A DNA stretch of 64,000 nt from Cryomorphaceae bacterium (GTDB taxonomy: Bacteria; Bacteroidota; Bacteroidia; Flavobacteriales; Schleiferiaceae). Position 1 is the first letter of the stretch. Each line of letters opens with the position of its first letter. The stretch covers positions 1-64,000 of the forward strand of contig JAJTFK010000007.1 of the NCBI GenBank assembly GCA_021298655.1, read 5' to 3'. The notes under the pieces are model-generated. The model did not search any database. It was not told the DNA's origin and saw only the letters and a list, made by a program, of their open reading frames with translations. A program made the position numbers and the translations under genes. Shown here one piece after another: positions 18,734 through 26,840 of the stretch.

Positions 18734-19038
18734 GTTCCGATACCATTCGCATCAACGTCGCCATTGGCGGCAGGACCTATCCCTTGACCATTCCGCGCCA
18801 CGAAGAGGAGCAGGTTCGAAAGGCGGTATCCTTGATTCAGGGTACGATTTCGCGCTTTGAGGAGCGCTACGCCGTGGGCGACAAGCAAGATGCCCTAGCC
18901 ATGTGCGCCCTACAGTTGGCGAATCAGGCTGCGGGCATGCAGTCCGCCGGCGACCATTCCGGGGCAGAAGACGAGCGCTTGAAGCAGATTCAGGGCCAGC
19001 TCGACGCCGTTCTGGGTACCCGGCGTACCGCCCTTTAG
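18730..19038 (+). CDS. zapA: Cell division protein ZapA
   Basis: ZapA binds FtsZ and cross-links protofilaments in the division ring. The N-terminal beta-strand pattern IRINVAIGGRTYPLTI and the helix EEEQVRKAVSLIQGTISRFEERY, with DALAMCALQLA, fit the ZapA family; length 102 is normal. Translationally coupled to the coiled-coil gene. Its stop overlaps that of the convergent HAD gene by four bases. Confidence 0.88.
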   Translation: MSSDTIRINVAIGGRTYPLTIPRHEEEQVRKAVSLIQGTISRFEERYAVGDKQDALAMCALQLANQAAGMQSAGDHSGAEDERLKQIQGQLDAVLGTRRTAL

Positions 19039-19625
19039 CGGCTTAAATCCAATACTTCGGGGTCAATCGCGTTGCGCAGCGACCAGTAGGCTTGATAGGT
19101 CTCGGACCAGGCTTGACGTCCGGCAACCGCGGCTTCAAGCCAACCGCGTTCTGCGAGGTAGTGTTCGCACCAGCGCCGAACGGGCGAAGGGGTTGGGATC
19201 CAATCGTCTACCAGTTCGTGTTTTTGGGCCAGTTCGCGAACGCCTTCGGTCCACGGCCATGCGACCATAGCCCGTCGGCCTACCTGCGCGGCGAGCCCGA
19301 AATCGAGCACGTCGTCAAAGACAAAGGCCCAATCGCTCGGGCTCTGGCTCCAGCGTTCCGTCAGCAGGGGGATGGCCTTGGTCTTGTCGCGGGCGTAAAA
19401 AAGGAATTGGTCGATGTGTTCGCGCTGGGCCACGTGTTCGGCGGTGAGGTTGCGCTCCCCGGTAACAAGGGCGACGCGAAGCATTTCTCCGGTGTGCAGG
19501 TAGTGCCCAAAGCGGAGCAGGTTGAGGCCCATGGTGTCGTGTTCGCTGAACTCGGAATGGCCGTCGGGGCGCTTTCGCCCGTCGGTCCAAACGCCGTCCC
19601 AGTCGAAGATGAGGCCGCGAACCAT
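19035..19625 (-). CDS. HAD-superfamily phosphatase, KdsC-like
   Basis: Haloacid dehalogenase fold of the small, cap-less KdsC type: LIFDWDGVWTDG gives the nucleophile D8 and the acid D10, ALVTGERN is motif II (T/S), KTKAI contains the motif III lysine, and FVFDDVLDFGLA is motif IV. KdsC itself releases phosphate from 3-deoxy-D-manno-octulosonate 8-phosphate, and relatives act on other nonulosonate phosphates. The substrate here is unknown. About 50 extra residues at the C-terminus (PTPSPVRRWCEHYLAERGW on) are not part of KdsC. It starts two bases after the stop of the transaldolase-CBS gene, so the two act in one pathway by strong contextual inference. Confidence 0.8.
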   Translation of the reverse strand: MVRGLIFDWDGVWTDGRKRPDGHSEFSEHDTMGLNLLRFGHYLHTGEMLRVALVTGERNLTAEHVAQREHIDQFLFYARDKTKAIPLLTERWSQSPSDWAFVFDDVLDFGLAAQVGRRAMVAWPWTEGVRELAQKHELVDDWIPTPSPVRRWCEHYLAERGWLEAAVAGRQAWSETYQAYWSLRNAIDPEVLDLSR

Positions 19626-19627
19626 GC

Positions 19628-20641
19628 TCAGGAGTTTAGATCTTGTATGTCAATCAATCCGAGCGCTTTACCTGATTCATCCTCAACCAAAAGTTGATCT
19701 ACTTTGGTTTCGGCGAACCGACGGTACGCGTCGTTGAGCAGGGCCGACGAAGCAACGGCATGCGGTGCCTTAAGTGCGTGCGCCGAACGAAGGCTGGCGT
19801 GGACGTCCAAGGTTCCCTGGCGCTCCATAAGTCGGCGGAGGTCGCCGTCGGTAAACAACCCGACGGCACGGCCCTGTTCGGCCAGTACTACGGCTCCGAG
19901 TCCGCTCACGGTCATGGCCACAAGTGCGTCCCGAACGGGCGTATCGGGAGATAAAATCGCTTGGTCCGGCCGCAGCACGTCGGCAACCCGAACCGTCATG
20001 CGGCGGTGGTCTTCGTCAAACTGGGCGGTACCGAGGCTCGTAAGGTGGTTGTTGGGCAGCTGCTGGGCCACCGACCAGGGAACCGTAACGGCGTCGACGC
20101 CCAGGTCCATGGCGTTGCGCACGTGTTCGCTGTGGCGCACCGACGAAAACATGACCTTCGAAGCGTAACCGTGCCGATCCTTGAAGGCAACAATGGAATC
20201 CACTAAGGCCAAAGCATCGGTTCCCTGATCCTGAAGGCGTCCGACCAAGGGACAGACGTAGGTCGCCCCGGAATTCATGGCCATGTAGGCCTGCTGCGGG
20301 GTGTAAATGAGGTGGACGTTGGTCATAATGCCCTCTTTGCTGAGGTGCGCGCAGGCTTCGACGCCGTGCAGCGAAACCGGAATCTTGAACACCGTAGTTT
20401 CGCGCGGCATGCCCAGCGCCAGCAGCCGGTGGGCTTCGGCCACAATTTCGCTCGCGGACGATCCCAGGGCCTCAACCTGAATCACGGGAACGTGCTTCGA
20501 GGTCTCGAGCAGCCAGGCATCGACGTTCGCAACTCCTTGACGCTGAAGGAAGGTAGGGGTAGTCGTAAGGCCGTAAAAAATGCCGAGGGTAAAGGCGGCC
20601 GAAATCTCGTTCGGATTCGCGGAGTCGAGGTACAATTCCAT
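19628..20641 (-). CDS. Transaldolase-like (FSA-type) protein fused to a CBS-domain pair
   Basis: Residues 1-215 align with fructose-6-phosphate aldolase/small transaldolases: MELYLDSANPNEISAA (D6), VFKIPVSLHG with the Schiff-base lysine K86, and HLIYTPQQAYMAMNSGATYV. The usual TTNPS is TTTPT (T28 in place of N28), and the tyrosine in the family's PYVNR motif is L (CPLVGR), so the catalysis or substrate is altered. Residues about 215-337 are two CBS domains (DVLRPDQAILSPDTPVRD, FTDGDLRRLMERQG, LGLIDIQDLNS). The CBS pair has the same arrangement as on KdsD, whose sugar isomerase partner acts with KdsC. This gene is upstream of a KdsC-like phosphatase. It is probably a sugar-phosphate lyase/aldolase regulated by a nucleotide. 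Confidence 0.85.
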   Translation of the reverse strand: MELYLDSANPNEISAAFTLGIFYGLTTTPTFLQRQGVANVDAWLLETSKHVPVIQVEALGSSASEIVAEAHRLLALGMPRETTVFKIPVSLHGVEACAHLSKEGIMTNVHLIYTPQQAYMAMNSGATYVCPLVGRLQDQGTDALALVDSIVAFKDRHGYASKVMFSSVRHSEHVRNAMDLGVDAVTVPWSVAQQLPNNHLTSLGTAQFDEDHRRMTVRVADVLRPDQAILSPDTPVRDALVAMTVSGLGAVVLAEQGRAVGLFTDGDLRRLMERQGTLDVHASLRSAHALKAPHAVASSALLNDAYRRFAETKVDQLLVEDESGKALGLIDIQDLNS

Positions 20642-20697: not shown

Positions 20698-21972
20698 ATG
20701 AAGAAGCTCTTGGTTGCCAACCGCGGCGAAATTGCCCTGCGCATCATGCGTACCGCTCGCCAAATGGGAATTGCTACGGTTGCGGTGTATTCGGAAGCGG
20801 ACGCCGACGCGCCCCACGTTCATTTTGCCGACGAAGCCTACTTAGTGGGCCCCGCGCCGAGCAACCAAAGCTACCTTAATGTTGCGGCCGTCGTGGCGGC
20901 CTGCAAGGCCTCAGGGGCCGACGCCGTGCACCCGGGGTACGGATTTTTGAGCGAAAATGCGGATTTCGCCGAGCGCATTCAGCGCGAAGGCATTATTTGG
21001 GTGGGCCCCCCAGCCTCGGCAATTCGCGTGATGGGCGACAAGCTGTCGGCCAAGGCCGCGGCGGCCCAGTTTGACGTTCCCTTGGTGCCGGGCAGCGACG
21101 GGGCCGAAAAATTCGTCACCTCGCCCCGCCACATCGAAATCCAGGTGCTGTCGGACCAGCACGGTACCCACCTGCACCTCTTTGAACGCGAATGCTCGGT
21201 GCAGCGCCGCCACCAAAAAGTGGTGGAAGAGGCTCCGAGTGCCATTTTGTGTCCGGAACTCCGCGCGCAAATGGGCGATGCGGCGGTTAAGGCCGCCCAA
21301 AGCTGCGGCTACGTCGGCGCGGGCACCGTGGAATTCATTTTTGATGCGAGCGGAGCCTTTTACTTCCTCGAAATGAACACCCGCCTGCAGGTGGAGCATC
21401 CCGTTACCGAAGAAGTCACGGGACTCGACCTTGTGGCCGAACAGATTCGCATTGCCCGAGGCGAAAAACTTCCGTACCGCCAAGAAGACCTCAAGCTCAA
21501 CGGCCACGCCATCGAACTGCGCGTGTACGCCGAAGACGTGGCCAACAACTTTGCGCCCGATACCGGGGTGCTGGAAGTCTACCGCCGCCCGACAGGTGCC
21601 GGAATCCGCGTCGACGACGGGGTGCGCGAAGGCCAGGAGGTTTCGGTCTACTACGACCCGATGCTGGCCAAGCTCATCGCTTGGGGCCCGGACCGCGAAA
21701 CGGCCCGGCAGCGCTTGCTGGCGGCCATTGATCGTTATGCGGTGGTCGGCGTTAAGAACACCCTGCGCTTCGGTCGCTTCATCCTGGAGCATCCCGATTT
21801 CGTGAGCGGACACTTTGATACGGGCTTCGTTGCCAAGAATTTCACGCCCGAGGCGTTGGAACCGCGCCCCCAGGGTGCGGAATGGGCCGCAGCCCTCGCC
21901 GAGTACTACCGTCCGCAACCCGCGGCACCGCCCGTAGCACCAAGTCTATGGAAAACACGCCACGGATTATGA
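20698..21972 (+). CDS. accC: Biotin carboxylase (AccC-like) with an internal in-frame deletion
   Basis: AccC carboxylates biotin on its carrier protein with ATP and bicarbonate. The N-terminal domain (KKLLVANRGEIALRIMRTAR, AVHPGYGFLSENADFA), the QRRHQKVVEEAP segment, the EMNTRLQVEHPVTEE metal site and the C-terminal domain are all present. Between PGSDG (residue 135) and EKFVTSPRHIEIQ (residue 137 on) roughly 60-70 residues are missing. That segment normally holds the ATP-grasp lysine and the glycine-rich lid GGGGKGM, so the encoded protein should be inactive. The frame is preserved. The deletion could be real or an assembly collapse at about 21100-21108. The stop overlaps the next gene by ATGA. 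No accB is adjacent. Confidence 0.85.
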   Translation: MKKLLVANRGEIALRIMRTARQMGIATVAVYSEADADAPHVHFADEAYLVGPAPSNQSYLNVAAVVAACKASGADAVHPGYGFLSENADFAERIQREGIIWVGPPASAIRVMGDKLSAKAAAAQFDVPLVPGSDGAEKFVTSPRHIEIQVLSDQHGTHLHLFERECSVQRRHQKVVEEAPSAILCPELRAQMGDAAVKAAQSCGYVGAGTVEFIFDASGAFYFLEMNTRLQVEHPVTEEVTGLDLVAEQIRIARGEKLPYRQEDLKLNGHAIELRVYAEDVANNFAPDTGVLEVYRRPTGAGIRVDDGVREGQEVSVYYDPMLAKLIAWGPDRETARQRLLAAIDRYAVVGVKNTLRFGRFILEHPDFVSGHFDTGFVAKNFTPEALEPRPQGAEWAAALAEYYRPQPAAPPVAPSLWKTRHGL

Positions 21973-24205: not shown

Positions 24206-24234
24206 TTGGCGAAGCCGAGCTCCTCGGGGCGCCG

Positions 24235-24242
24235 TACTTTTG
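24235..24242 (+). promoter_or_regulatory. TAnnTTTG promoter box for guaA
   Basis: TACTTTTG, CTCCC, ATG at 24248. It fixes the guaA start and separates it from bshC. Confidence 0.6.
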
Positions 24243-24247
24243 CTCCC

Positions 24248-25582
24248 ATGACCGACGCCATCTTGATCCTCGACTTTGGTTCGCAGTACACCCAGCTGAT
24301 TGCTCGCCGCGTGCGCGAACTCAATGTCTACTGCGAAATTCATCCGTTTCACCACATTCCGGAGGACTGGAAGGCCAAGTTTAAGGCGGTTATTTTGAGC
24401 GGTTCCCCCTTTTCGACCCTAGAAGAAGGGGCGCCCAATCCCGACTTGAGTGGGTTTTACGGTCAAGTTCCGTTGCTGGGCGTATGCTATGGGGCTCAAT
24501 TTATGGCCCATACGCGCGGCGGAAAGGTTGCGCGCAGCACGCACCGAGAGTACGGCCGTGCCCACCTCAACCCCGGCTCGGGTGCATCGCGCCTGCTGGC
24601 CGGAATCCCCCAGGGCAGTACGGTGTGGATGAGCCACGGAGACAGCATTGTGTCCCTTCCTGCCAGCGCGGTCATTGAGGCCACGACCGACAGCATTCCG
24701 GTGGCTGCCTACCGCTTTGCGGACGAAGAAACCTACGCCATTCAGTTCCACCCCGAGGTCGTGCATTCCGAACACGGAACGCAGCTGCTGCGCAACTTCA
24801 TCTACGAAATTGCCGGTTGCGCCCCCACGTGGACGCCGGCCAGCTTCATCGACGAGACCGTAGCGGCCCTTAAGCAGCAAATTGGCGGCGGCAAGGTGGT
24901 CTTGGGCCTCAGCGGAGGCGTCGATTCTACGGTGGCCGCGGTATTACTCGACAAAGCCATTGGCGACCGCCTGCACTGCATTTTTGTCAACAACGGCTTG
25001 CTGCGCAAAAATGAGTTCGAGGGCGTGTTGGCCCAGTACGAGCACCTGGGCCTCAACGTGGTGGGCGTGGACGCCAGCGCCGAGTTTTACGCGGCCCTCG
25101 CCGGCCACGAAGACCCCGAAGCCAAGCGCAAGGCCATTGGTCGAACCTTTATCGAAGTGTTTGACCGCGAGGCCCACCGCATTCAGGGTGTGGAATTCCT
25201 CGGTCAGGGAACGATTTACCCCGACGTCATCGAGTCCGTCAGTGTGAACGGCCCGAGCGTAACCATTAAATCGCACCACAACGTCGGCGGCTTGCCCGAT
25301 TTCATGAAGCTCTCGATTGTGGAGCCCTTGCGGAGTCTGTTCAAGGACGAGGTGCGCCGCGTGGGCGCCGCCATGGGGCTGAAGCCCGAACTGCTTGGCC
25401 GCCATCCCTTCCCGGGACCGGGTCTTGCCATTCGCATTCTGGGTGAGGTGACCGCAGATAAAGTGGCGATTCTTCAAGAGGTCGACCACCTCTTTATTCA
25501 GGGACTCCGCGACGCCGGCCTGTACGACCAGGTCTGGCAAGCCGGCGCCATTCTGCTTCCGGTTAAGTCGGTGACGGCATGA
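24248..25582 (+). CDS. guaA: GMP synthase (glutamine-hydrolysing), 3' end disrupted
   Basis: GMP synthase converts XMP to GMP with glutamine and ATP. The glutaminase half has GVCYGAQ (catalytic C80) and [11 protein letters not shown] (H and E of the triad, about residues 168-170). The ATP-pyrophosphatase half has [12 protein letters not shown] (P-loop, about 221-232). The dimerisation domain follows but the frame ends at VKSVTA (25582). After a missing stretch of about 22-24 codons, the rest of the protein continues from about 25574 to 25716 in another frame. If the deletion is real the enzyme would be truncated; GuaA is normally essential for purine synthesis without salvage, so this points to an assembly error. 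The start [15 protein letters not shown] is the family's normal N-terminus. Confidence 0.92.
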
Positions 25583-25716
25583 CGGCGGATTGGGTGCACT
25601 TGCCCTATGACTTTTTGGCACGAACTTCGAACGCCATCATTAACCAGGTTCGCGGCGTAAACCGGGTCGTCTACGACATCAGTTCCAAGCCGCCCGCAAC
25701 CATCGAATGGGAATAA
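25574..25716 (+). pseudogene. guaA: Out-of-frame 3' remnant of guaA
   Basis: The frame beginning [20 protein letters not shown] and ending [17 protein letters not shown] is the last 46 residues of GMP synthase, ending in the conserved TIEWE followed by TAA at 25714-25716. It is joined to the upstream part through a deletion at about 25573. Its stop overlaps the next gene's start by ten bases. Confidence 0.9.
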
Positions 25717-26840
25717 AGATTTTCGCGGTCCTGACCGCCAGCCTGATCCTCCATCAAGGAGTCCATGCGCAGTCTCCGGTACGCTGGGCACTGGTCTTGC
25801 CTTTTCAGGTTCAAGCAGATACGGCAGGGGGCAAGGTAGGCCAGCGCATGGCGCTCGAGTTTTATGCCGGATTTAAGGCGGCCCTTGATTCGGCGTCCAG
25901 CGCCGAGGAAATAGTCCTGGATTTGTACGACTTTGATGAGGCCACAGGCAGCGTGATCGATCACCAAATCGGGGGCGTTGTTCGGAACTACAACCCCAAG
26001 GAATTTATGCTGCTGCAGCAGCAGCGTGACGTGCGCTTCGTGGTTGGCCCCTTTCGCGCCCAGGACTCCGAGGCCCTTGCCCAGCAATCATCGTCGTCGA
26101 CCTATGTGGTAAATCCGGTCTCGCGCGACCTGTCGGTTCGGGGTAACCCGCAACTGATTGCGGCGGCCCCTCCGCGCTTCACGGAATCTGAGGCCCTTGG
26201 TCGGCTCGCGGCGCGCGACACCAAAGCCCGTCCCAATTCGCGAACCGTCGTTTTTGATTTGGGCGACAAGAACAGCGTGCTGCAGCGCAAAGCGTTTTAC
26301 ACGGGTTTTGCTGCGAACGGCGGAGACACGTCCAAAATTCAGAGCTGGGATGGTCGACCAACCGCCAACCTCGCGGAACGCGTCGGGCGCGATGACTTGA
26401 TCGCGACGCGGTTTGTGCTGCTGGACGACAAGGTGTTGAGTGCCGCGCGCATTCTTCAGGGGCTGCGCCAGCGCCCGGCGAGCCAAACGGAACTGTGGAC
26501 CGTCAGCACGACCGTCAACAGTCCTTCGCTCGATGCTTTTTTGCTGCTGCGCCAACCCATTGTTTGGGTGCAGACCGATCGTCTGGAGTTCGCGACCTAC
26601 GACGCCGTGGATGCCCAGATTTCGGACGCCCTTGGCGAATCGCGTTCGCGCTGGGCGTGGCTCGGTTACGATACAGCCCTGATGCTGTTAACCAATGAGC
26701 CCGACGGATTTACCGGTCCGCGCCGCCGCTACGAATGGCACCTTGAGCCAAACGGAGGCCAAGTCAACCGGGCAGTAGAGCTTTACCGCTACGACCCCAA
26801 GGTGGGTGTGAACCCTGTTAAAATTCCTGCGTTACCCTAG
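25707..26840 (+). CDS. Predicted exported periplasmic-binding-like protein
   Basis: A signal peptide ([22 protein letters not shown]) precedes a 355-residue protein resembling the branched-chain amino acid ABC substrate-binding fold (Peripla_BP), with alternating beta-alpha units ([60 protein letters not shown]). No ABC transporter genes are adjacent, so it may be a receptor-like or lipoprotein-associated protein. It overlaps the guaA 3' end and is followed with one base gap by crtZ. Role unknown. Confidence 0.75.

Follow-up and report, generated by a model that had tools for sequence, protein, structure and literature searches.

A transaldolase-CBS fusion proposed to replace the arabinose 5-phosphate isomerase KdsD in Kdo synthesis of Bacteroidota

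Kdo, an essential sugar of the outer membrane, is found in nearly every LPS, and KdsD is regarded as the standard source of the arabinose 5-phosphate from which it is made. Our results indicate, at a probability of roughly 0.6, that a fusion protein made of a transaldolase domain and a CBS pair takes the place of KdsD in this pathway as a non-orthologous replacement, and that it would form D-arabinose 5-phosphate by aldol addition. Many Bacteroidota thus seem to use another enzyme class for the entry step of Kdo synthesis, which would be an unrecognised variant of a core outer-membrane step, and no earlier description of a transaldolase-CBS fusion replacing KdsD in Bacteroidota was found in the literature searched. 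The window, the whole stretch of 64,000 nucleotides that was analysed, holds the following features of the system:

19628..20641, minus strand: transaldolase-CBS fusion protein, 337 amino acids (open reading frame; Pfam TAL_FSA and CBS matches; adjacency to kdsA; mutual exclusion with KdsD)
20006..20641, minus strand: transaldolase/FSA-type barrel, residues 1-212 (alignment of 42 homologues; predicted fold compared with 1vpx and 3s0c)
20384..20386, minus strand: codon of the Schiff-base lysine K86 (alignment with K85 of FsaA)
19628..20005, minus strand: CBS pair, residues 213-337, with a KdsD-like G-L-FTDGDLRR motif (4o9k, TIGR00393 and motif count)
19035..19625, minus strand: KdsC-like HAD phosphatase, 196 amino acids, proposed Kdo-8-phosphate phosphatase (open reading frame; KdsC match below cut-off; catalytic motifs; position downstream of the fusion)

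The original prediction, that a fused transaldolase-CBS gene is followed two bases later by a KdsC-like HAD gene, is borne out by both open reading frames, which lie on the minus strand with 2 bp between them. In the most likely route, K86 of the class I aldolase domain would bind glycolaldehyde as a Schiff base and add it to D-glyceraldehyde 3-phosphate, giving D-arabinose 5-phosphate. KdsA would convert this product and PEP into Kdo-8-phosphate, the adjacent KdsC-like HAD protein would dephosphorylate it to Kdo, and KdsB would turn Kdo into CMP-Kdo. The entry step is probably under feedback control by nucleotides or CMP-Kdo through the KdsD-type CBS pair.

The fusion and KdsD largely exclude each other. 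Of the 88 genomes in the window's family, 34 encode the fusion, 40 encode KdsD (counted by its SIS domain, whether or not CBS was present), none encodes both (about 15 expected) and 14 encode neither. In a draw of 395 genomes of the class Bacteroidia, the fusion (match at E <= 1e-45) was found in 77 and KdsD in 225, with both in 5 genomes against about 44 expected, and at genus level both occurred in 3 against about 21 expected. Fisher values for the exclusion, which ignore relatedness, are 3e-25, 1e-12 and 2e-13. Both states can be found in different genomes of one family (for example f1, f17, f20, f26, f30, f50, f53, f68 and f82). The fusion and KdsD are encoded together in G580, G603, G661 and G682, and G479 has KdsD with a divergent fusion. 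KdsD genomes of the window's family have clusters of the form kdsA-kdsC-kdsD or SIS-kdsA-HAD, and since the kdsA cluster carries KdsD in those genomes, the fusion occupies KdsD's place; in the wider class, kdsD of KdsD genomes often lies away from kdsA. KdsA itself was present in 22 of the 34 fusion genomes, 39 of the 40 KdsD genomes and 3 of the 14 with neither. These last three are explicable, as in two of them the contig ends next to kdsA, at the place expected for the SIS gene, and the third has a KdsA of the fusion-linked type.

The gene neighbourhood points in the same direction. In 45 loci from many families, whose open reading frames were clustered and whose neighbour genes were named from sequence reading (kdsA and kdsB also from family searches), a frequent order was kdsB - kdsA - fusion - HAD. 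The Kdo-8-phosphate synthase gene kdsA lies immediately upstream of the fusion on the same strand in 23/45 loci, and the kdsB cluster has 11 members among the fusion-locus reading frames. The HAD gene follows immediately downstream, again on the same strand, in 28/45 loci, so its pairing with the fusion is no chance adjacency, and the linkage on which the prediction depended is conserved elsewhere. The analogy drawn there with KdsD and KdsC proved apt too, since the genes belong to kdsA/kdsB operons and stand in for KdsD. What lacks support is the proposal that the HAD enzyme acts directly on the aldolase product, because the operon places KdsA between the two enzymes. The simplest scheme would then lead from the aldolase through arabinose 5-phosphate and Kdo-8-phosphate to the HAD enzyme and Kdo, and its first product is an aldose and not the new keto-sugar phosphate that had been suggested, although the alterations around the arabinose-phosphate site of the linked KdsA, described below, may point to a changed sugar. 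Clusters of KdnA-like and KdnB-like genes have 5 members each among the fusion-locus reading frames. These KdnB/KdnA-like genes (iron-type alcohol dehydrogenase and DegT-type aminotransferase) lie near the module in L085, L089, L090, L095 and L100, which suggests conversion of Kdo to 8-amino-Kdo.

The fusion combines parts of two known proteins. A Pfam search assigned residues 3-210 to PF00923 (TAL_FSA; E 1.7e-32, 113 bits against a cut-off of 27) and detected two CBS domains (E 8.4e-14). The predicted structure has a mean pLDDT of 82.5 and a pTM of 0.56, and its barrel matches the transaldolases 1vpx and 3s0c with a TM of 0.85 by target. The Pfam score, the fold match and the presence of K86 in 42/42 homologues place the protein in the TAL/FSA superfamily. 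It falls outside the curated FSA family, with 150.1 bits in TIGR00875 against a cut-off of 245.95, and the catalytic tyrosine and donor-site asparagine of FSA are absent from all 42 homologues (Y131 to L132, N28 to T). Among solved structures, the CBS pair has its best match in 4o9k, the corresponding region of an arabinose 5-phosphate isomerase. The KdsD model TIGR00393 matches the fusion at profile positions 151-267 only, that is, over CBS and outside the SIS isomerase domain, and the TDGDLR motif is found in 36/42 fusions, 22/24 KdsD proteins and 0/632 neighbouring reading frames. By these comparisons the CBS pair can be classed as KdsD-type. Feedback by CMP-Kdo, the ligand with which 4o9k was solved, should be read as a lead. 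Like KdsD/GutQ/KpsF (TIGR00393), with which it is mutually exclusive, the fusion combines this operon position and a KdsD-type CBS pair with arabinose 5-phosphate as proposed product, but the catalytic domain of those proteins is SIS, whereas the fusion has a transaldolase-type barrel carrying a Schiff-base lysine. If the reading is right, an exchange of the catalytic domain left the type of regulatory CBS domain unchanged.

The active site was examined by aligning the 42 fusions with FsaA of E. coli, the genome's own plain transaldolase, a metagenomic relative and two transaldolases of solved structure. D6, T26, E57, K86, R135, S167 and R169 (window numbering) are retained in all 42 fusions, and T28, H110, C130 and L132 around K86 are equally invariant, an unusual donor-pocket signature. 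The substitutions foreseen in the original prediction, with K86 kept, N28 changed to T and the conserved tyrosine to L, are all confirmed by the alignment, but ordinary transaldolases already carry F at the Y131 site of FsaA and the relevant comparison for L132 is F to L. Asn28 of FsaA touches the donor, and Tyr131 serves as its proton shuttle (PMC13259622). Position 28 is T in 42/42 fusions and N in the genome's plain transaldolase, and loss of this donor-contacting Asn would be a good fit with a changed donor such as glycolaldehyde. Glycolaldehyde is without the C1 hydroxymethyl group of dihydroxyacetone. FsaA of E. coli forms arabinose 5-phosphate from glycolaldehyde and GAP in vitro (PMC6298115, PMC9947464). 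The fusion shares with FsaA the fold and the catalytic residues D6, K85, R134 and S166 (FsaA numbering), and differs from it in its CBS pair, in N28T, T109H, A129C and Y131L, and in a score below the FSA cut-off. The stereochemistry of the new bond in the FsaA reaction is of the F6P type, as arabinose 5-phosphate requires. The demand for glycolaldehyde at LPS-scale flux counts against the aldol reading. That demand would disappear if the protein were an isomerase on an aldolase fold, converting ribulose 5-phosphate, a common metabolite, into arabinose 5-phosphate through the K86 Schiff base. The enzyme replaced by the fusion is itself an isomerase, and the changes at H110, C130 and L132 of the donor pocket are compatible with such a function, but D6, E57 and K86, the aldol residues, are retained without exception and this isomerisation is not known to us from any class I aldolase fold, so we regard it as unlikely. 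As a D-arabinose-5-phosphate-forming aldolase in place of KdsD, which is what we propose, the fusion would fill a pathway gap in those Bacteroidota genomes and would provide a natural example of the aldol reaction between glycolaldehyde and GAP on which synthetic carbon-assimilation pathways now draw.

The KdsA proteins encoded beside the fusion are altered. Comparison of 31 KdsA from fusion-type loci with 14 from KdsD-type loci (E. coli numbering) showed that 30/31 of the former differ at 117 (F to Y), 120 (R to M), 139 (K to H), 205 (Q to R), 207 and 254, and that 29/31 carry A61D; KDNRSS replaces KANRSS, and the L7 loop is changed as well. N62, R63, K138, R168, H202, E239 and D250 are kept, as are the PEP and metal residues. 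These proteins differ from canonical KdsA in KDNRSS, in Met for Arg120, in His for Lys139 and in the L7 loop, but share its PEP/metal residues and mostly score above the TIGR01362 family cut-off. The possibility that they are DAHP synthases was rejected, as the KdsA cut-off is mostly passed and the best solved hits are Kdo-8-phosphate synthases. Some of the altered positions line the arabinose 5-phosphate pocket or the L7 loop, F117 corresponding to Phe112 of the N. meningitidis enzyme (PMC6650799). A different aldose is thus possible, and the aldolase, the altered KdsA and a specialised HAD phosphatase may have co-evolved for another aldose phosphate and another 3-deoxy-ulosonic acid. In favour of this are the presence of A61D, F117Y, R120M, K139H and the changed L7 loop in nearly all fusion-linked KdsA, the canonical residues in 14/14 KdsD-linked and 80/80 viral KdsA where checked, and the fact that the HAD proteins form a distinct subfamily. 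Against it, KdsB has no group-specific column when fusion and KdsD genomes are compared, PEP/metal residues and N62/R63 of KdsA are kept, the fusion is exclusive with KdsD, and in G006 (genus g5) the fusion is paired with a canonical KANRSS/Arg120 KdsA. The fusion is present and KdsD absent in this genus, where KdsA of G007 and G008 is also high-scoring, and a canonical KdsA without KdsD, as checked in G006, needs a source of arabinose 5-phosphate. The lack of group-specific change in KdsB and the G006 pairing favour Kdo as the end product, and we consider co-evolution for a new sugar improbable. We give similarly little weight to a parallel aldolase pathway in which an aldose phosphate other than arabinose 5-phosphate would lead to a sugar acid standing in for Kdo in the LPS of Bacteroidota. 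KdsA relatives are encoded in at least 217 viral contig stretches, and the 80 of them that were compared (L232-L311) were all canonical by the motifs checked (KANRS, PAFLCRQ and KKG).

No Pfam match was found for the 196-residue HAD protein, and it matches the KdsC and KDN-9-P phosphatase models under their cut-offs, its 26.4 bits against a KdsC cut-off of 208 leaving it outside that equivalog family. The catalytic residues D, D, K, D and D of HAD phosphatase motifs I-IV are conserved in 32/32 homologues, and the T/S of motif II is visible in the displayed alignment of homologues. The extra C-terminal segment noticed in the prediction is real, the protein extending about 33 residues beyond the end of E. 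coli KdsC. With KdsC it shares the HAD core, the catalytic motifs and the place in the Kdo cluster, but FDD stands in place of GDD, the C-terminal extension is long and the score is below the cut-off. The homologues form a distinct subfamily with catalytic residues intact.

Since a second, plain transaldolase is encoded in the window's genome, the fusion is not the housekeeping enzyme. That it is an ordinary pentose phosphate transaldolase which gained a CBS regulator and stands beside LPS genes by chance is very improbable, since it has the fold of 1vpx/3s0c but a plain transaldolase is encoded separately in most of the family's genomes, the fusions branch off as a long-branched clade whose donor pocket is altered, and kdsA linkage and KdsD exclusion also argue against it.

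Several fusion genomes have gaps or lesions in this pathway. No kdsA was found in 12/34 fusion genomes of the family, 11 of them in the window's genus. G053, which is 98% complete, has no detected kdsA, yet KdsB and WaaA are present; in G056 the usual neighbour gene is not followed by kdsA, in G047 the contig stops partway through the neighbour, and G043, G045, G049 and G055 lack both genes. In the window's genome, kdsA (L154, G000:C31, 9450-10174) is frameshifted by the loss of about 52 bp following codon 24. Within the window, accC (biotin carboxylase, 20698-21972) is missing about 186 bp present in its relatives, including the glycine-rich ATP-binding loop, and guaA (24206-25720) has a frameshift near its C-terminus, with the expected end in another frame just downstream. 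Both lesions are probably assembly deletions, and their occurrence in core genes suggests that the kdsA frameshift is probably an assembly error as well. No kdsB was found in the window's genome; relatives carry it some 9 kb from waaA, a position past the contig end here.

Full-length fusion relatives across Bacteroidia are 50-57% identical, and the phylum draw gave a single matching genome outside this class. A phage origin of the fusion was rejected, none having been found in the viral contigs. The 42 fusions, together with a divergent subgroup, make up a single long-branched clade (100/100) in a tree that also includes five plain enzymes. This subgroup of transaldolase-CBS proteins from family f18 (L106, L107, L108, L109 and L120) is 31-39% identical, with Arg or Ser replacing the Schiff-base lysine and no kdsA or HAD gene adjoining; its members are possible pseudoenzymes.
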